Part shown: in pieces, positions 12,050-23,400 of the stretch
Layout: each line of letters begins with the position of its first letter
Numbering within the stretch: the stretch's first letter is position 1
IMG/VR virus record: IMGVR_UViG_3300036398_000101
Location: 1-23,438 of that record
Direction: 5' to 3' (one strand)
DNA length: 23,438 nucleotides
Source: a virus
The notes under the pieces: generated by a model
What the model saw: the letters and a program-made list of their open reading frames with translations, nothing else
Told to the model about the DNA's origin: nothing
Database searches by the model: none
Position numbers and translations under genes: made by a program

Positions 12050-13624
12050 ATGGCGTCCCCTACGCGCCGCAGGTTGATTCAGCGAACGCAGGCCAACGTC
12101 GCCTCGCTCCCGCCCCCGGTTGGGGGTTGGAACGCCCGCGACGCGCTTGCGAACATGGCTCCTACGGATGCCGTGACGCTGGATAACTTGTTTCCGGGCG
12201 TTTCTAGCGTGATGCTGCGTGGCGGCTACGACAAACACGCCACCGGAATGACGGGTCAGGTTGAAAGTCTGCTGACCTACAGCGCCGGAACAACGGACAA
12301 GTTGTTTGCGGTTGTTGGCGGTAGCATCTTTGACGTTACCTCCGCTGGCCCTGTTGGCGCTGCGGTAGTAAGCGGGCTTTCTAATAGCCGGTGGGAATAC
12401 ACCAACGTTACGACGGCAGGCGGCAGTTATTTGTATGCCGCAAACGGGGCTGATAAGCCGCTGCTGTACAACGGTTCATCATGGACGCCAATTGACGGGG
12501 CATCAACGCCTGCTATCACGGGCGTTACGGTAACCAAGTTAATCCAGCCGACGCTGTTTAAAAGCCGCGTTTGGTTCATTGAGAAAGACACCCTAAAAGC
12601 ATGGTATTTGCCGACAGCATCTGTGGGCGGTGCCGCACAGGCGCTTGACCTGTCATCAGTTGCCCACCTTGGCGGCAACTTGGTGGCAATGGCCGCGTGG
12701 ACGATTGACGCGGGCTACGGTGTAGACGACAACCTCGTATTTGTAACCGATCAAGGTGAAGTGCTGGTATATCGCGGCACAGACCCCTCTAGCGCCTCCA
12801 CATGGGCGTTAATCGGCATTTGGGTCATCGGTGCGCCAATTTCCCGCCGTTGTTTGCTGAAATACGGCGGTGATTTGCTGGTTTTGACGCTAGATGGCCT
12901 GATTCCGATGGCCTCGGCGCTGCAATCGTCACGGCTTGACCCCAACGTGGCGCTGTCAGACAAGATTCAAGGTGCGTTTGCGGTTGCTGCCCGCACTTAC
13001 AAAAACAACTTTGGCTGGGGGATGTTGTATCACCCGCTAAACAATGCCTTGATGGTTAACGTACCGGTGTCAACTGGCGCACAAGTGCAGTTTGTAATGA
13101 ACAACATCACGAAGGCGTGGTGTCGGTTTACCGGCTGGTACGCCAACTGCTTTGCTTTGCTAAACGATGAGCCTTATTACGGCTCTGACGGCTATGTAGC
13201 AAAAGCGTGGACAACCGGAACCGGATCAGCTGGTTACAACGACAACAGCCAAGCCATCAACACCCGCGCATTGCAGGCGTTTAACTACTTTGACACCCGT
13301 GGCGTTATCAAATACTTCACCCGTGGGCGCGTTACGACCTACAGCAACGGCCAGCCGACCATCGGCGTTGGTATTGCGGTGGATTTCCAGACCGATGACT
13401 TCCTTGGTGCGCTGTCATTTGTGGCAACGAATTACGGCCTGTGGGACGTAGGTCTGTGGGATCAAGCAATCTGGGGCAGCAACAGCATTGCCAATAACAC
13501 CGTTGTGGGCTTAAGCGGCATCGGATATTGCGGCGGCATTATTTTTAACAGCAGCAGCAAGAACGTTTCGCTTGAGTGGGCATCAACCGACATCGTGTAT
13601 CAACTCGGATGGGCTGGAATATAG
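12050..13624 (+). CDS. Tail nozzle / DNA stabilisation-like protein (T7 gp12- or P22 gp10-like)
   Basis: The protein has 524 residues and starts two bases after the adaptor stop. After a basic N-terminus it has LPPPVGGWNARDALANMAP and DAVTLDNLFPG, an opening I know from podovirus tail nozzle proteins. Repeating beta units follow (YLYAANGADKPLLYNGSSW, VWFIEKDTLKAWYLPT, LVFVTDQGEVLVYRGTDP, WCRFTGWYANCF), consistent with a beta-propeller as in T7 gp12 and P22 gp10. It would form the hexameric lower tail tube through which DNA leaves. Position directly after the adaptor fits this. I see no frameshift. Its last 16 bases overlap the GNAT-like gene. Confidence 0.82.
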   Translation: MASPTRRRLIQRTQANVASLPPPVGGWNARDALANMAPTDAVTLDNLFPGVSSVMLRGGYDKHATGMTGQVESLLTYSAGTTDKLFAVVGGSIFDVTSAGPVGAAVVSGLSNSRWEYTNVTTAGGSYLYAANGADKPLLYNGSSWTPIDGASTPAITGVTVTKLIQPTLFKSRVWFIEKDTLKAWYLPTASVGGAAQALDLSSVAHLGGNLVAMAAWTIDAGYGVDDNLVFVTDQGEVLVYRGTDPSSASTWALIGIWVIGAPISRRCLLKYGGDLLVLTLDGLIPMASALQSSRLDPNVALSDKIQGAFAVAARTYKNNFGWGMLYHPLNNALMVNVPVSTGAQVQFVMNNITKAWCRFTGWYANCFALLNDEPYYGSDGYVAKAWTTGTGSAGYNDNSQAINTRALQAFNYFDTRGVIKYFTRGRVTTYSNGQPTIGVGIAVDFQTDDFLGALSFVATNYGLWDVGLWDQAIWGSNSIANNTVVGLSGIGYCGGIIFNSSSKNVSLEWASTDIVYQLGWAGI

Positions 13625-14052
13625 TTAGCGGCCCTCAAGTGGGGGCATGGGTCACGGCGCAGACGGAAGGGGCGTTTGATCCCTCTCGGTCAGTTGCCAT
13701 CGGCCTTGAGCGTGACGGGGAGTTGGTAGCGGGGACGGTTTACGAGAATTGGAACGGGCGATCCGTTGTTTGCCACATTGCTTGGCAGCGGGTCACTCCG
13801 GCTTATATGGCGGCTGTGTACGATTATGCGTACAACGTCGCAGGAGTTGATAAGATAATAGGGCCAATCAGCAGCAACCATACCCGGGCGCTCGCATTGG
13901 TCAGCAAGATGGGATTCTCGGAAGAGGCGCGAATTAAAGAAGCCGCGCATGATTCTGGGGATATTGTTTTGATGACGCAGACACCCGACAAGTGTCGATA
14001 CTTGGAGCCTCGGTATGGGCAAAAAATCACCGGCACCGCCGCCAGCGCCTGA
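13609..14052 (+). CDS. GNAT-like acetyltransferase domain protein
   Basis: I choose the ATG at 13609 (147 residues); it begins MGWNIVSGPQVGAWV, and the alternative GTG at 13576 has no clear ribosome binding site. The segment SVAIGLERDGELVAGTVYEN fits the first strands of the GNAT fold. NHTRALALVSKMGF (90-103) is the typical C-terminal acetyl-CoA-side element, in which a helix ends in GF. The central pyrophosphate-binding loop (Q/R-x-x-G-x-G/A) is not clearly recognisable, so catalysis is not certain. GNAT-like genes are often found between tail genes of podovirus-like phages, with unknown substrates. It overlaps genes on both sides, which argues that it is part of the virion transcript. Confidence 0.75.
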   Translation: MGWNIVSGPQVGAWVTAQTEGAFDPSRSVAIGLERDGELVAGTVYENWNGRSVVCHIAWQRVTPAYMAAVYDYAYNVAGVDKIIGPISSNHTRALALVSKMGFSEEARIKEAAHDSGDIVLMTQTPDKCRYLEPRYGQKITGTAASA

Positions 14053-16591
14053 CTACACCACCCTTGCGATTAAGCAGGGTGAAGCCAATATGGCTGCCGC
14101 CAGACAGTCGGCGTATATGTCTAATCCCAACGTTTACGGCCCGACTGGCAGTCAGGTTGTTACGTGGACAAAAACGCCCACCGTAGACACCGACGCTTAT
14201 AACAAGGCGTTACAAGCGTGGCAGGATCGTGGCGCACAGTACGGTTTTGAGGGAATTGGTGAAGCGCCAAGCCAAGAACAGTTCACGACCTACATTGAGC
14301 AACCAACGATTACGCAAAGCCTTGGAAGCCCCGAGGCGCTGCAAGCGTTACGCGCTCAAGAGCGAGCGCAACTGTCTATGTCGCAAGCCGCTGAAGGCGC
14401 GGCGGGCGGGTTACGCAACCTTGGCATTGCGTCGGCATTTAGCCCGCAAAACCTGCCGTCTCTGCAATACAACGTCCCGGGCGCAGGCGGTTTGCAGCGT
14501 GAGTTAACACCGCCAAGCGAATCCATCGGATATACGCAAGCCGGAGAAGCAATTAGTGGCATTGCAGGCGCGCCGCAAGCGGGATATACGCCAGTTGGTG
14601 CGTTTTATGCCGAACCGCTGCCGGGAACGATGGGCGCTGGGCAAACGGCAACTGGTGCTGTGCCGGTGCAAGGTGCAAGCAACGTACAAAATCAATTTTT
14701 TGGATTGGCGCAGGGCGGCCCCGCCGCACCTACCGACCTCGGTCAATTAGGCACATCGCAGTTTTATTCACAGGCAGCCCCCGACGGGCAGATGTTTGGC
14801 ACCGCACAAGGCGGCCCCGCAGGCGGTTTGTTTGGCATGGCAGGCGCAGGCCCGCAAGGAATCAACCTGCAAGGGCTTGATTTGTCTGGCATTGGCGGTG
14901 TGGCTGGTGGCCCACAACAGGGTCAGTTTGGTTACGCGCAGCAGTTTGTTGGTGGCCCGCAATTACAAGGGCAGATTGACGTATCCAACATTGCACAAGG
15001 CCCAATCAATGCAGGCACAACGGCGCAGCAGGCGATCCTGTCGCGTTTGTCGCCGCAATTGCAGGGCGAACGTCAGGCGCTTCAAACGCAGTTGATTAAC
15101 CAAGGCTTGCGACCCGGTGGCGAAGCGTACAACTCTGCCATGTCGGCTCAAATGCAGAAGGAAAACGACCTTCTTCTGCAAGCCGCCGCGCAGGGCATCA
15201 GCCTTGACCAAGCCGCACGACAGCAACAGTTTGCCGAGCAGCAGTCTCGCGCCATGTTTGCCAACCAAGCGCAGCTGCAAGGCTTTGGCGCTGGCATGGA
15301 GCAGGCGGGTCTATACAACACCGGCCTTGGTCAAAACCTGTCGCAGTCGCTTGCCACGCAAGCCGCGCAGAATCAGGCGCAGCAGCAAGCGTTCCAGCAG
15401 CGGTTGCAGGCGGGTGAGTTTGGGCAGGAAGCGCAACTGGCGTCATTTGGTACGCAGCAGTCAGCGCAAGATGCGTACAACCGCGCCATTGCCCAGAACT
15501 TTGCACAAGCCCAAGCCGCACAACAGATGGGCAATCAGGCTATCGGGCAGAATTTTGAGCAGGCATTAGCCGCCCAACAAGCGCAAAACGCAGCCATTGG
15601 TCAAAACTACCAGCGGGCGCTTGGCGCAAGTGAATTTAACCGCGCTGGCTTGCTCGCGCAGTTTGGTATGGGGCAGCAGGCACAGGAGCTTGCTAACCAA
15701 GCCCTCGCGCAAAACTATCAGACAACGTTTGATCAGGCTCGTTTGCAAAACGAAGCCATGCAGCAAGTCTTTAACCAGACGGTTGCACAGGCCGAATTGG
15801 CAAATGCTGCCCGTTCGCAGAACTTCCAACAGGAATTGGCTGCACAGCAAACCAATTTAGCGCGTCAAGCTCAACAGGCTGGTCAGTCGCAGGAAGCAGC
15901 GCAGTTTTATAACCAAGCGCAGGCTCAAGCGATGCAGCAGGAGTTGGCGCGTCAGGCGGCACAGAACCAAGCGCAATCGCAGCGATTTAATCAGCTGATG
16001 ATGCAACAAGATCAGCGTAATGCTGCCATTGGTCAAGGTTTTGACATTGGCGCACAACGAGCCGCGTTCCAGAACCAAGCGCAGCAACAGCAGTTCCAAC
16101 AGAACATGGCGCAGCAGCAGTTCTACAACACAGCGATTCAGCAGGCGTTGGCGCAGCAGGCGGCAATTCGCAGCATTCCGGTCAACGAGATCAGCGCGTT
16201 GTTGTCAGGCGGTCAGGTCAGCGTGCCGCAATTCCAAGGCTACAGCGGCGTCACGGTCGCTCCCGCGCCCATCTTCCAAGGTGGTCAGGCGCAGGATGCA
16301 GCCGCGATGCAGCGGTATGGCATCCAAGCCAATCAGGCTGCGAGCAATGCGGGCGGGTTGTTCAACCTTGCAGGCTCGCTCGGTAGCGCAGCCATCATGG
16401 CGTCAGATCGCCGTTTGAAGTCCAACATCGTGCGCGTAGGTACGCATCCGCTCGGCATAGGCGTGTACGAGTACGACATCTTTGGCGAGCGTCAGCGCGG
16501 CGTCATGGCTGACGAAGTTGAATCTGTGATGCCAGAGGCGGTAGTAACGCATCCGGCTGGCTTCCAAATGGTCAACTACGGGATGCTCTAA
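14015..16591 (+). CDS. Large Gln/Ala-rich virion protein ending in a peptidase S74 chaperone domain
   Basis: The protein has 858 residues; GGAG at 14004-14007 precedes the ATG, which lies inside the GNAT-like gene. The N-terminus (KSPAPPPAPDYTTLAIKQGE) is basic and Pro-rich. Residues ~100-340 are Gly/Pro/Gln-rich and contain the twice-repeated phrase AQGGPA. Residues ~340-740 are an exceptionally Gln/Ala/Asn-rich helical region with ~18-residue repeats such as AIGQNFEQALAAQQ. The last ~62 residues begin SDRRLKSNI (S797, K802), with GVMADEVESVMPEAV downstream: the intramolecular chaperone/auto-protease domain (peptidase S74) of phage fibres and spikes. Family knowledge predicts trimer folding followed by cleavage just before S797. 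The rest resembles an internal or ejection protein more than a fibre, so the final location is uncertain. Confidence 0.85.
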   Translation: MGKKSPAPPPAPDYTTLAIKQGEANMAAARQSAYMSNPNVYGPTGSQVVTWTKTPTVDTDAYNKALQAWQDRGAQYGFEGIGEAPSQEQFTTYIEQPTITQSLGSPEALQALRAQERAQLSMSQAAEGAAGGLRNLGIASAFSPQNLPSLQYNVPGAGGLQRELTPPSESIGYTQAGEAISGIAGAPQAGYTPVGAFYAEPLPGTMGAGQTATGAVPVQGASNVQNQFFGLAQGGPAAPTDLGQLGTSQFYSQAAPDGQMFGTAQGGPAGGLFGMAGAGPQGINLQGLDLSGIGGVAGGPQQGQFGYAQQFVGGPQLQGQIDVSNIAQGPINAGTTAQQAILSRLSPQLQGERQALQTQLINQGLRPGGEAYNSAMSAQMQKENDLLLQAAAQGISLDQAARQQQFAEQQSRAMFANQAQLQGFGAGMEQAGLYNTGLGQNLSQSLATQAAQNQAQQQAFQQRLQAGEFGQEAQLASFGTQQSAQDAYNRAIAQNFAQAQAAQQMGNQAIGQNFEQALAAQQAQNAAIGQNYQRALGASEFNRAGLLAQFGMGQQAQELANQALAQNYQTTFDQARLQNEAMQQVFNQTVAQAELANAARSQNFQQELAAQQTNLARQAQQAGQSQEAAQFYNQAQAQAMQQELARQAAQNQAQSQRFNQLMMQQDQRNAAIGQGFDIGAQRAAFQNQAQQQQFQQNMAQQQFYNTAIQQALAQQAAIRSIPVNEISALLSGGQVSVPQFQGYSGVTVAPAPIFQGGQAQDAAAMQRYGIQANQAASNAGGLFNLAGSLGSAAIMASDRRLKSNIVRVGTHPLGIGVYEYDIFGERQRGVMADEVESVMPEAVVTHPAGFQMVNYGML

Positions 16592-18518: not shown

Positions 18519-20621
18519 ATGGCTTACCAAGAAGGCGCAACAGCAACCAACGACAAGACGGGTCAGCGGTACATTTTCCGAGGTGGAAAGTGGGAAGAAT
18601 TAACGCCGCCGCCACCGACTTCAGCGCGAACAATGGGCGCAAACTTGTCGCCCACAGCGCAAGGCGCAATGACGTTTGGGCAGGGCGCGACGTTCAATAT
18701 GTTGGACGAGTTGGCGGGCGCTGCTGCGCTTGGGCAAATGGGTCAATCTTACGCAATGGGCGGCACAAACGTCGCTCCAACTCGCGCCGATTACACCGCT
18801 CCGCGTGACATCGTGCGCGGCGGCACAGAACGCTTTGCCGAAACCAATCCAAACCTTGCCCTTGGCCTAGAAATGGCTGGTGGCTTGGCTACGTTGCCGA
18901 TCAGCATGGGTGGCTCTGCTGCGCCTGTTGGCGCAAACATCGCTTCTCGCGCTGGGCGTTACGTCGCCCCCGTTGCAGCGCAGAGCGCCGTCAGCGCGGC
19001 AGGCGCAAGTGAAGCCACCGAGCCGTCAGAGCTTGGCATGGACATCCTGTATGGCACGGGCGTTGGTACTGCTACGGGCGGCTTAACGGGTCTTGGCATC
19101 AAAGGCGGTGGTTCGTTAATTCGCCGCGTGACGCCGAACATGAAGCGCGACTTTGAATTGCAGCCCGCTCGGGAGCGCCTTGCACAGCTGTTGCAGCGCG
19201 ATGCGTACTCTCGTATGCCGCCTGACACGCTTGCCAAGCAGGATCGCATTGCCGAGATTGAACGGCAGTTGAAAGTGCTTCCCGGCCCGTCACAGTTAAA
19301 GGCTCGGCTGCAAGAAGAACTGACTGCGCTGACTAGCGGCGTTGAGGCTGACCCGACCGAGATTGCTGCCGCTCGGCTGCAACGTCCCCGTGGCGGTGGC
19401 CTTGGCCCAGAAGCTCCCATCGCCGCAACTGGCTCTGCAACGCGAAGCGAGTTAGCGTTGCTGCGTAATCAGCCCGGCTCTACCGAGGGGATGATTGAGC
19501 GCGGTACTCGCCCGCTGGTAAATCGCCGCGGTGATCGTTTAATTGAGGCATCAGATCGCTTGCTTGAGGCAGAGGGAGTGCCTTTCCGCGCTACGGTTCG
19601 CCAATACACAGAGCAAGCTAAAGCCAAATCAGCGCCGTACTACAACCAGCTGCAAGATTTGGATTTCCCAGTAGACGCCAAACTAGCCGAAATACTGAAC
19701 CGCGCTCGCAAAGCATACAGCGAGGCAGAAGAATTGGCGTTAGTGTCGGGAATGCCAGAAAAACTTAACCTTAACGAGTTGCGCCCCGGTGATCGTGTTC
19801 CGTTTGGCGTGTTAGACACGTTGAAACGGGCGCTTTACGACATTGAGGAAGGCGCAAAGGGTGAGTTTGGCAAAGCAACCGAAAAAAGCCGTGCATACAC
19901 AGGTTTGCGCCGTGAATTGACGGAAAAACTTGACCAAATTTCACCGAAAGACGATCAAGGTCGCAGCATTTATCAGCTTGCCCGTGAAAATTTTGGCAGC
20001 GAAACGCAAATTGCCGAGGGCATGAAGCGTGGCCGCGATGTTATGACGCAAGACATTGAAGAATTGTCTGAAATCATTGATGACATGGAACCCGCGCAGT
20101 TGCGGGCATTCCGTCTTGGCGCTGCACAAGCATTAAGGGATCAGGCGGGAACGCCAGCAGGTCAAACCAAACTGATGAGCTTGCAGAAATCTCCCGCAAT
20201 GCAAAAGCGATTGAGATTGGTGTTTGGCAACAACTTCCGCGAGTTTCAAGCCACGGTGTTGCGTGAGGCAGAACTGCAAAAGACTGCCCGAGCGGGTGAA
20301 GGGTCGCAAACCTTCCGTTTAGGAGCGGGCGAGCAAGATCAAAGTGCGCTTGCCAAAGCGTTGCAGGCGGCGCAACTCGCACAGGGCGACGTTTTAAGCA
20401 GCGCCGCTGTTGTTGCAGCCAAAGACAAAGGCAAAAAACTTAACGAAAGGCAGCGTCAACAGTTAGCAGAATTGCTGTTGCTGAAAGGCCAGCCTGCACA
20501 AGACGAATTGCGTAATGTGCGTTTGTATCTAGAGCGACGCGCAGCGGCACAGCGCCGCGCACAAGAGGCGTCGGGTCGCATTGGCGCATTCGGCGCTGGT
20601 TACGGCGCAGGACAGGAATAG
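18519..20621 (+). CDS. Large internal virion / ejection-type protein
   Basis: The protein has 700 residues; AAGAGG at 18506-18511 precedes the ATG. It starts with a short domain (ATATNDKTGQRYIFRGGKWEE) found at the N-terminus of many phage internal proteins. Residues ~112-205 are Gly/Ala-rich and weakly hydrophobic (LEMAGGLATLPISMGGSAAP, YGTGVGTATGGLTGLGIKGGG), resembling segments that could enter a membrane. Long charged helices follow to the end. It has no lytic transglycosylase Glu motif that I can see. Together with the two preceding virion candidates it resembles the trio of ejected proteins in P22 and T7. The role is inferred, not shown by a catalytic motif. Confidence 0.78.
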   Translation: MAYQEGATATNDKTGQRYIFRGGKWEELTPPPPTSARTMGANLSPTAQGAMTFGQGATFNMLDELAGAAALGQMGQSYAMGGTNVAPTRADYTAPRDIVRGGTERFAETNPNLALGLEMAGGLATLPISMGGSAAPVGANIASRAGRYVAPVAAQSAVSAAGASEATEPSELGMDILYGTGVGTATGGLTGLGIKGGGSLIRRVTPNMKRDFELQPARERLAQLLQRDAYSRMPPDTLAKQDRIAEIERQLKVLPGPSQLKARLQEELTALTSGVEADPTEIAAARLQRPRGGGLGPEAPIAATGSATRSELALLRNQPGSTEGMIERGTRPLVNRRGDRLIEASDRLLEAEGVPFRATVRQYTEQAKAKSAPYYNQLQDLDFPVDAKLAEILNRARKAYSEAEELALVSGMPEKLNLNELRPGDRVPFGVLDTLKRALYDIEEGAKGEFGKATEKSRAYTGLRRELTEKLDQISPKDDQGRSIYQLARENFGSETQIAEGMKRGRDVMTQDIEELSEIIDDMEPAQLRAFRLGAAQALRDQAGTPAGQTKLMSLQKSPAMQKRLRLVFGNNFREFQATVLREAELQKTARAGEGSQTFRLGAGEQDQSALAKALQAAQLAQGDVLSSAAVVAAKDKGKKLNERQRQQLAELLLLKGQPAQDELRNVRLYLERRAAAQRRAQEASGRIGAFGAGYGAGQE

Positions 20622-20631
20622 GAGATAAACG

Positions 20632-22590
20632 ATGAGTTTTAACGGCAGCGGCACATTCCTCATCAACTCGGCAGGGCAGCCTGTCGTTGCTAACACCGTC
20701 ATTTCGTCCACGGTCTTTAACCAGTTGACCGCTGACCTTGCTACGGGTCTATCCACTTGTATCACCAAGGATGGACAGACCACGCCCACGGCTAACATCC
20801 CGATGGGTAACAACAAGATCACCGGCATGGCACCGGGTACGCTCGGCACCGATGCGGCAAACCTGACGCAGGTACAAACCAGCGTTGCCAAGTTAATTAC
20901 CTCTGTTTCGGGCGCTGACACCATTACCGGCATCATGTCGCCTACCTTGCTGTCGTATGCGGCGGGTCAGATGTTCTACTTTGCGTCAGTTGGCGCAAAT
21001 ACCGGCGCTGTTACGCTCAACATTGACGGCTTGGGCGCTAGAGCGGTTACCCGTGACGGTTCATCGGCGCTAATCGCTGGCGACATCAACTCTGGCGAAA
21101 TCGTGGTGGTCATTTACGACGGCACCCGATTCCAGATGATTAATGCCGCAAACTCGTTCGGCAACACGACGATTAACGGCACCCTGACCGTCACCGGCAA
21201 GAGCAACCTTGCGGAAGTGTCCACGCCGTCGATGAATGCGACGGTTGCGGTGATCGGTACGCTTACCGCTACGCAAGCCTCTGTTGCTTCTGCCAACCTT
21301 GGGACGGCAGTTGTCACGAATTTGACGGCTACCAACGCCTCGGTCACCTCGGCCAACGTTGGCACCGCTGTAGTCACTCGGTTGGATGCTACGGGAGCAT
21401 CAGTTGCCTCCATTAACGCTGCTGTGGCGCTCTTTACCACGGCCACCGTCACCAACTTGCAGGCCACCGGAGCGTCGATTGCATCGGCCAACATCGGTAA
21501 CTTGTCGTTGGTCGGCGTTTCGGTCGCCTCGGCTAATTTTGGTGTAGCCAACGTCACCGACCTACGCGCTGCGGGGGCATCGGTCACCTCTGCTAACGTC
21601 GGAACGGCGGTTATCACGACCGGCACCGTCACTAGTTTGACGGCAACCGGAGCCAGTATTGCCTCGGCTAACCTCGGCACGGCCAATATCACCGCGCTGA
21701 CCCTAACCGGGGTGTCGGTGGCGTCGGCTAACGTCGGCGTTGCCAATATCACCGACCTACGAGCTGATGGTGCATCGGTAACGTCGGCCAACGTCGGCAC
21801 AGCGGTCATTACCAACGGCACGGTCACTAACCTTTCGGCCACTAGCGCCTCGGCTGCCTCCATTAACGCAGCGGTCGCGCTGGTAACGACAGGAACGGTC
21901 ACTAACCTAACCTCTACCTCGGCTTCTATCGCCTCGGCCAATCTCGGTACGGCGGTCATTTCCAACCTCACGCTGACGGGCGCATCTATCGCCTCGGTCA
22001 ACGTTGGGGTTGCCAATGTCACCGATTTGCGGGCTGATGGCGCGTCAATCACCTCGGCCAATGTTGCTACCGCTGTAGTAACGAATCTGACGGCCACGGG
22101 GGCTTCCATTGCCTCGGCCAACGTTGGTACAGGGGTGGTAACAACGCTGACCGCTACGGGCGCAAGCATTGCCTCTGCCAACGTTGGTACGGGCGTTGTC
22201 ACTACGCTGACCGCAACCGACGCCTCTATTGCCTCGGCTAACGCAGGAACGGCGGTAGTAACCAACCTGACCGCTACCAGCGCGTCAATTGCCTCGGTCA
22301 ACGCCGGGGTGGCGCTGCTGACAACGGCCACGGTAACCAACCTTGCAGCTACTAATGCGTCCATGACATCAGCCAATCTGGTGTTGGCGCGGTTTATTGG
22401 TAGCTCGTCGGGTTACGTTGGATTGCAGGCGGCGGCTGCCGCTGGATCGACTACTTACACGTTGCCAACCGCTGACGGCGTTGGTGGGTATGTACTCACC
22501 ACAAACGGGTCAGGTGTTTTATCATGGGTCGCCCAATCAGGCGGCGGCGGTGGTACTGGAAGCAACGCATTTGCATGGTTTATTTCGTGA
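20632..22590 (+). CDS. Tail fibre protein with 77 pentapeptide-type repeats
   Basis: The protein has 652 residues; AGGAG at 20620-20624 precedes the ATG. The N-terminus includes NIPMGNNKITGMAPGTLGTDAAN, a segment common in phage tail fibres. Residues ~85-185 look beta-rich (YFASVGANTGAVTLNIDGLG). Residues 206-590 are an unbroken run of 77 pentads (ASIAS-ANVGT-AVVTN-LTATG and variants). The C-terminal ~60 residues include YTLPTADGVGGYVLTTNGSG and LSWVAQSGGGGG, a common fibre ending. It would bind host surface structures. A strong repeat-driven open frame exists on the opposite strand but is a shadow. Confidence 0.88.
   Translation: MSFNGSGTFLINSAGQPVVANTVISSTVFNQLTADLATGLSTCITKDGQTTPTANIPMGNNKITGMAPGTLGTDAANLTQVQTSVAKLITSVSGADTITGIMSPTLLSYAAGQMFYFASVGANTGAVTLNIDGLGARAVTRDGSSALIAGDINSGEIVVVIYDGTRFQMINAANSFGNTTINGTLTVTGKSNLAEVSTPSMNATVAVIGTLTATQASVASANLGTAVVTNLTATNASVTSANVGTAVVTRLDATGASVASINAAVALFTTATVTNLQATGASIASANIGNLSLVGVSVASANFGVANVTDLRAAGASVTSANVGTAVITTGTVTSLTATGASIASANLGTANITALTLTGVSVASANVGVANITDLRADGASVTSANVGTAVITNGTVTNLSATSASAASINAAVALVTTGTVTNLTSTSASIASANLGTAVISNLTLTGASIASVNVGVANVTDLRADGASITSANVATAVVTNLTATGASIASANVGTGVVTTLTATGASIASANVGTGVVTTLTATDASIASANAGTAVVTNLTATSASIASVNAGVALLTTATVTNLAATNASMTSANLVLARFIGSSSGYVGLQAAAAAGSTTYTLPTADGVGGYVLTTNGSGVLSWVAQSGGGGGTGSNAFAWFIS
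21247..22401 (+). repeat. Tandem 15-bp-unit coding repeat, mostly in 60-bp modules
   Basis: This part of the tail fibre gene encodes the 77 consecutive pentads (residues 206-590). Most modules are 60 bases (four pentads), for example those starting at 21277 and 21337. Others are 75 bases (21397 to 21472) or 45 bases (21472 to 21517), always multiples of 15. Codons differ between copies, so the amino-acid pattern is better conserved than the DNA. Confidence 0.9.
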
Positions 22591-22599
22591 GGGCATGAC

Positions 22600-23400
22600 A
22601 TGACTACGTTAGTTTTAGACGCAACCACAAAATCTATCGTTGTCGCCATGTCCGGGTCGGCGACGACTACGAACCCCGACTTTACCGCTGCATGGGCTGA
22701 TGACACCGGCTCGGCGTTTACCGAGGGAGCCAGCGACGGTGCGCTAAACGGCACCAATTCGGTGACTTTGGTAGCCGCGCCAGCATCCAGCACTCGGCGC
22801 GTGATCAAATCAATCACGATTGAAAACAAAGACACGGCAGCGGTCACGATCACCGTTTCCTACAACAACAACAGCACCTTACGCACCATTGCCACGGTCA
22901 CGTTGAACGTAGGCGACACATGGACAACCACCGGCACGTTTGACACCAACGGCTCGTTTAAGCAGACCCTTGGCACGGTCAACCTTTCCTCTGGCGTTAC
23001 CGGCACGTTGCCGGTTGCTAACGGAGGTACTGGCACAACGACCGGCTCATTGGTCAACTGCACGGTTGATGGAACCAACCCGGTCGGTTACCGCAACATT
23101 CCGCAGTCAGGCTCGGCCAAAACGACGAGCTACACGCTTGCCACGGGCGATGTAGGCGAATTTATCAACGTCGGCACTGGTGGATCGGTGACGATTCCTA
23201 ACAGCACCTTTGCCGCTGGCGATGTGGTGTCAATTTTCAACGACACAAGCGGTGCCATTACGATCACTTGCACCATTACAACCGCCTATATCGCAGGCAC
23301 AGATGCGGATAAGGCTACGGTCAGCTTGGCAACGCGAGGTGTGGCGACGATACTGTTCCTCTCTGGTACGGTCTGCGTTATCAACGGCAACGTGAGTTAA
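22600..23400 (+). CDS. Fibre-associated / receptor-binding-type structural protein
   Basis: The protein has 266 residues and starts ten bases after the fibre gene. The N-terminal ~120 residues are a beta domain (RRVIKSITIENKDTAAVTIT, LNVGDTWTTTG). The phrase VTGTLPVANGGTGTTT near the middle is a well-known connector in phage tail fibre proteins. The last ~85 residues (FINVGTGGSVTIPNSTFAAG ... FLSGTVCVINGN) are a second beta domain that resembles the N-terminal domain of the protein at 9732-10559. It probably forms part of the fibre or its tip. No enzyme motif is visible. Confidence 0.78.
   Translation: MTTLVLDATTKSIVVAMSGSATTTNPDFTAAWADDTGSAFTEGASDGALNGTNSVTLVAAPASSTRRVIKSITIENKDTAAVTITVSYNNNSTLRTIATVTLNVGDTWTTTGTFDTNGSFKQTLGTVNLSSGVTGTLPVANGGTGTTTGSLVNCTVDGTNPVGYRNIPQSGSAKTTSYTLATGDVGEFINVGTGGSVTIPNSTFAAGDVVSIFNDTSGAITITCTITTAYIAGTDADKATVSLATRGVATILFLSGTVCVINGNVS

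Follow-up and report, generated by a model that had tools for sequence, protein, structure and literature searches.

A tail-fibre shaft of 77 uninterrupted pentads is predicted to form a quadrilateral beta-helix of adjustable length

Analysis of a 23,438-nucleotide stretch of viral DNA (the window; IMG/VR record IMGVR_UViG_3300036398_000101, positions 1 to 23,438) revealed a tail-fibre gene whose product carries a shaft of 77 contiguous five-residue units, or pentads. We propose, with a probability of roughly 0.6, that this shaft forms a quadrilateral beta-helix in each chain and serves as an adjustable spacer between a virion-bound N-terminus and exchangeable C-terminal modules. The pentad register is conserved in relatives, where shaft length varies, positions 1 and 3 of the pentad stay nonpolar and the modules behind the shaft are swapped.

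Results

The tail-fibre gene lies among structural genes of a tailed phage

Tailed-phage structural proteins encoded in the window include a terminase, a portal and a virion protein containing an S74 domain. Its source is an uncultured phage that is likely podovirus-like, because the portal shares 33-39% identity with its counterparts in Bradyrhizobium phage ppBjS10J-1, Myxococcus phages Mx8 and Mx9, and Stenotrophomonas phage BUCT555. The tail-fibre gene (20632..22590, + strand; 652 aa) was identified by open reading frame (ORF) calling and by 78 related viral loci, and a Shine-Dalgarno-like AGGAGAT (20620-20626) stands just 5' of it. Its product comprises a conserved fibre N-terminus (residues 1-205; 20632..21246, +), the shaft (residues 206-590; 21247..22401, +), for which about 19 coils of a quadrilateral beta-helix are predicted, and a C-terminal cap common to 16 relatives (residues 591-652, SSSGYVGLQ...GSNAFAWFIS; 22402..22590, +).

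The S74-containing virion protein (14015-16591, +) is an 858-aa Q/A-rich protein with repeated AQNF/AIGQNY-like segments and a C-terminal S74 chaperone domain (Pfam E 3.5e-5); this S74 end is unusual in that the best PHROG match of the protein is to head and packaging. Upstream, a 524-aa protein (12050-13624, +) without a Pfam match is assigned to PHROG 5107 (E 1e-125), whose label, amidase, may be wrong here.

The pentad register of the shaft is uninterrupted

An earlier note on this DNA, made from the sequence alone, had described residues 206-590 as 77 consecutive pentads, and this held: the shaft corresponds exactly to 21247-22401 and divides into 77 pentads with zero register breaks. Residue identity within the shaft was 0.49 at a lag of 20 residues (z = 20 against composition shuffles) and was also raised at lag 25 (z = 9) and at lags 40, 60 and 65, while identity at lags 19 and 21 fell below chance. 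The hydrophobicity spectrum was dominated by periods of 2.5 and 5.0, and a five-state cyclic HMM placed 387 residues in register with 0 breaks (shuffles averaged 1.7 repeat-state residues). The note also described modules of 15, 20 and 25 residues as keeping the register, and all three spacings are present between L-type pentads in the window, where 17 intervals measure three pentads once, four pentads eleven times and five pentads five times.

We considered whether a 15-residue repeat of the triple beta-spiral, a common viral fibre shaft fold known from adenovirus fibres, had been misread as three pentads. Although 15-residue modules are present, such a fold is recognized by a dominant repeat of about 15 residues, and in this shaft lag 15 is weak (z = 4.2) and lag 20 dominates. 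Furthermore, the shaft contains no proline and matched no fibre of this kind, which makes a triple beta-spiral very unlikely.

Selection on the protein maintains the pentad pattern

The shaft is dominated by A, T, S and V, and ~4.2 copies of a 60-bp unit (20 residues, one coil) are still visible in the DNA (22052..22303, +). Both features would be expected if the shaft were low-complexity sequence without a defined solenoid, its register arising from slippage of a 15- or 60-bp unit. However, 61% of same-residue pairs 20 residues apart in the window shaft use different codons. Given this codon difference and the few 60-bp units visible in the DNA, the periodicity is a property of the protein.

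Comparison of 112 close-relative pairs corroborated this result. Positions 1 and 3 had been described in the earlier note as mostly small or hydrophobic, and they are indeed A/L and V/A/I, respectively, with their nonpolar character kept across relatives: 97% of amino-acid changes at position 1 and 90% at position 3 exchanged one nonpolar residue for another. The corresponding shares were 31, 33 and 6% at positions 2, 4 and 5, where mostly polar residues are involved. Among close relatives, 30-39% of codons differ synonymously only, versus 8-22% with an amino-acid change. Since positions 1 and 3 stay nonpolar while synonymous sites diverge, and since most codons differ at lag 20, the pentad pattern is kept by protein-level selection and not by recent slippage, and we regard the low-complexity explanation as extremely improbable. 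Side-chain volume at position 1 falls as that at position 3 rises (r = -0.52, z = -7.7), which fits A-x-V and L-x-A pentads filling one common core volume.

A 420-aa antisense ORF (21114-22376, -) mirrors the shaft; it is probably a by-product of shaft codon periodicity and no gene.

Shafts of relatives differ in length mostly by whole pentads

An IMG/VR scan recovered 78 loci that share the N-terminal region, and scanning with the shaft alone brought in additional contigs. Counting a shaft as a run of at least 75 residues gave 59 sequences with the window included (42 distinct, 11,507 residues); when the additional contigs and second shafts were taken in, relatives contributed 54 distinct stretches of 60 residues or more. 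Shaft length ranged from 16 pentads (L055, L059) to ~85 (L003), and shorter or cut runs also exist (seven pentads and then a stop in L058; six pentads in L077). The earlier note had proposed counting repeats in relatives for gain or loss in 15-bp steps. Of the 343 gaps that separate relatives of at least 78% identity, 325 were multiples of five residues, although these pairs are not independent of one another. In pairs at least 98% identical outside the gap, the indels measured 20, 20, 20 and 60 residues, which is to say whole coils.

The same note had named indels out of the five-residue register as evidence against its reading, and these occur marginally: 15 of the 42 distinct shafts carry a single 3-residue unit, but length otherwise varies almost entirely by multiples of five. 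The remaining 27 shafts (window included) are unbroken, and each of the 15 shafts with a break has exactly one, for 15 breaks in total. In 14 of these, an LGA or IAS-like triplet stands before VSIGSANIGT or its close variant ASIGSANIGT, at either of two sites along the shaft; the remaining break, in L037, is a seven-residue deletion that likewise leaves a unit of three. The breaks therefore look as if they arose three or four times independently across about 2,300 pentads, and the shaft tolerates a shortened pentad. This exceptional triplet module, found with VSIGSANIGT or ASIGSANIGT in L003, L005, L007, L010, L013 and others, may move by recombination.

The protein encoded at L138:1696-6645, which is fibre-like and has an Mtd domain at its N-terminus, contains a shorter in-register pentad stretch (GTVTN LTSTD STITT ADIDT AYVNT GVVTT), so other phages may also use this type of pentad.

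Structure prediction points to a 20-residue coil

AlphaFold2 modelling of the full-length protein gave mostly low confidence (pLDDT 49.5): the model was poor except in the distal shaft, and the N-terminal part was not confident as a monomer. Residues 391-590 modelled alone from 58 sequences yielded a strand pattern with a period of 20 at moderate confidence (mean pLDDT 65, pTM 0.61), from an alignment that mixes repeats offset by whole modules and may favour a 20-residue coil. The monomer prediction suggested by the earlier note thus returned the coil period of a four-pentad turn, and we treat the square helix itself as a prediction of moderate confidence.

Foldseek found no significant match with either the shaft-only model (best E 0.32) or the full-length model. 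VIA-align, which re-scores Foldseek's own candidates only, placed pentapeptide-repeat proteins in all of its top 16 rows for the shaft segment (Z 15.5-17.8, rmsd 2.7-3.6, 167-192 of 200 residues), and the row that followed had Z 13.1. The full-length model also matched a parallel beta-helix of the P22 tailspike kind (2vfn, Z 14.8, rmsd 4.6). Leucine-rich-repeat rows obtained with the full-length model were set aside (rmsd 8-16).

Sequence comparisons led to the same superfamily. Searching the PDB with the shaft returned pentapeptide-repeat proteins at E-values from 2.6e-9 to 0.06, the designed beta1 proteins first (2.6e-9), followed by NP275-NP276 and HetL; the reversed shaft and one shuffled shaft returned zero pentapeptide matches from the PDB. 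A profile search of solved structures again recovered pentapeptide-repeat proteins, plus one weak heparinase-like row. In Pfam, the shaft matched Pentapeptide_4 (PF13599) with an E-value of 4.6e-7, and this match was gone in three full shuffles, in the reversed shaft and upon exchange of columns 2 and 3, and remained, weakly, in phase-preserving shuffles. The Pfam matches are sub-threshold and present in 7 of 58 shaft segments; an unrelated model, bPH_5, scores four segments, one of them better than any Pentapeptide_4 match.

The shaft departs from canonical pentapeptide-repeat proteins

The pentapeptide-repeat superfamily has been defined by at least eight contiguous consensus repeats together with a right-handed quadrilateral beta-helix (PMC8145042), and the consensus published in 2019 is (A/C/S/V/T/L/I)(D/N/S/K/E/I/R)(L/F)(S/T/R/E/Q/K/V/D)(G/D/E/N/R/Q/K) (PMC8145042). 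With 77 contiguous pentads, the shaft far exceeds the required number of repeats. An ordinary PF00805 or PF13599 domain fused into a fibre would account for the unit length, the register, the A-N-V/L-x-x pattern and the best sequence matches, all of which the shaft shares with this superfamily. However, only 1 of the 77 window pentads (1.3%) fits the consensus at all five positions, and no pentad fits it in the other phases of the shaft. The central L/F occurs in 14% of pentads, the position being mostly V/A/I, and position 1 is L in about a fifth. The Pentapeptide_4 match reaches 30.2 bits against a cut-off of 38 and PF00805 was not reported in the Pfam search, so the shaft passes the curated cut-off of neither family. 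An ordinary domain of this kind is therefore highly improbable.

The idea of a divergent pentapeptide-repeat protein, put forward in the earlier note, survives in part: the predicted coil, the top structure matches and almost all of the sequence matches among solved structures belong with that superfamily, but the consensus and the curated cut-offs are missed. Because the consensus is unmet and the fold is predicted only, we do not classify the shaft among the pentapeptide-repeat proteins; it is not a canonical member of the family but most likely works like one. With the known proteins (PF00805, PF13599; NP275-NP276, HetL, MfpA, QnrB1, AlbG, designed beta1) it shares a five-residue unit, inward positions 1 and 3 and a predicted four units per coil, whereas its core is A/L plus V/A/I where theirs is A plus L/F, its units number 77, and it belongs to a virion fibre.

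Other fibres offer further comparisons. The trimeric P22 tailspike, a phage adhesion protein, also has a shaft with a parallel beta-helix, but the tailspike helix is three-sided with long irregular coils, in contrast to the predicted 20-residue coil and strict pentad unit described here. The fibre of Stenotrophomonas phage BUCT555, whose Mx8-like portal is related to that of the window, has the same N-terminal region, but its tblastn match is limited to residues 1-200. A shaft-only tblastn search against cultured phages returned no record, for which the low-complexity filter is perhaps responsible. Literature on pentapeptide repeats with tail fibre, phage tail, tailspike or virion described no such shaft; most subscription papers and preprints lay outside this search. 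The pentapeptide protein of Vibrio phage 24, for which a 75-bp in-frame deletion relative to CP-T1 has been reported (PMC5690320), was considered as a fibre and set aside as probably not one, since its gene is far from the tail genes and adjoins genes for a methylase and a regulator.

A constant base carries exchangeable tips

The N-terminal region is common to the tail fibres of BUCT555 and of Pseudomonas phages (tblastn), and in bacterial genomes, mostly proteobacterial MAGs, only N-terminal relatives were found. Behind the shaft, C-termini of at least five kinds occur among the relatives: the AWFIS cap, a homologue of the next ORF of the window, S74 with a coiled coil, WRDAGP and VLYCG. A base that stays constant, a rod of variable length and tips that can be exchanged make up the layout of an adhesion fibre, in which the rod would set the reach. 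Relatives that share the N-terminus and the shaft often carry S74 at their C-terminal end, as do intramolecular-chaperone (endosialidase) fibres, unlike the window protein, which has no S74 and ends in the short AWFIS-type cap.

The next ORF (22600-23400, +; 266 aa) shows 40-48% identity to the C-terminal portion of L002, L009, L016, L031, L033 and L063, where its counterpart is fused in frame behind the shaft. From this comparison, the arrangement appears to be a split or fusion of a fibre/tip gene.

S74 chaperone domains act on trimers, and their presence in relatives suggests a trimeric fibre. Residues ~95-170 also weakly resemble gp47 of the solved phage tail fibre 9b45 (E 0.007), which was deposited with three chains. 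Three chains would then have to be arranged somehow, and we considered an intertwined homotrimer in which every pentad contributes one short strand to a beta-prism or beta-helix built by all three chains. Neighbouring strands would then belong to different chains, and the monomer model would be an artefact. In addition to the S74 domains, the resemblance to a three-chain fibre and the poor folding of the N-terminal part as a monomer are consistent with this arrangement, as is the distribution of pentad types. Overall, five-pentad spacings between pentads of one type are nearly as common as four-pentad spacings (118 vs 157), and equal pentad types therefore leave one face of a four-sided helix; no compensation of 25-residue by 15-residue modules, which would keep them on one face, was seen. 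On the other hand, the monomer prediction, which leaves intertwining between chains out of account, is moderately confident with a regular 20-residue coil, no trimeric fibre shaft appeared among the sequence matches or top structure matches of the shaft segment, and we know of no intertwined fibre with five-residue units. We thus consider intertwining unlikely.

By analogy with tailspikes, three chains, each with its own square helix, probably lie side by side in the fibre. A hydrophobic stripe for such packing is not clear, with outer-face means of -0.75, -0.57, -0.80 and -0.27.

Discussion

In the mechanism that we favour, each chain would wind its 77 pentads with one pentad per face and four per coil, giving about 19 coils. 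Positions 1 (A/L) and 3 (V/A/I) would fill the core, while positions 2, 4 and 5 (T, S, N, G) would face out or form corners. Because one pentad would equal one quarter-turn, the rod could gain or lose whole pentads or coils and stay wound. The pentad array could thus act as an adjustable spacer from the virion-bound N-terminus to the exchangeable C-terminal modules, a function that we infer from the ability of whole pentads and coils to come and go.

Pentad solenoids may, more tentatively, represent a separate class of phage fibre shaft, undescribed in the papers searched: a three-chain rod, made of bundled square helices or an intertwined pentad prism, with quarter-turn length steps and variable end caps. 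This broader possibility is one toward which we do not lean.

If the square-helix spacer is correct, phage fibres would use a square beta-helix as an extendable rod, a job likewise undescribed in the papers searched. Length would change in steps of ~0.12 nm per pentad and ~0.48 nm per coil, assuming the usual beta-stacking distance, and the natural series from 16 to ~85 pentads would offer graded native solenoids with A/V/I/L cores for studies of repeat-protein folding. For the phage, the reach of the fibre could evolve independently of receptor binding.
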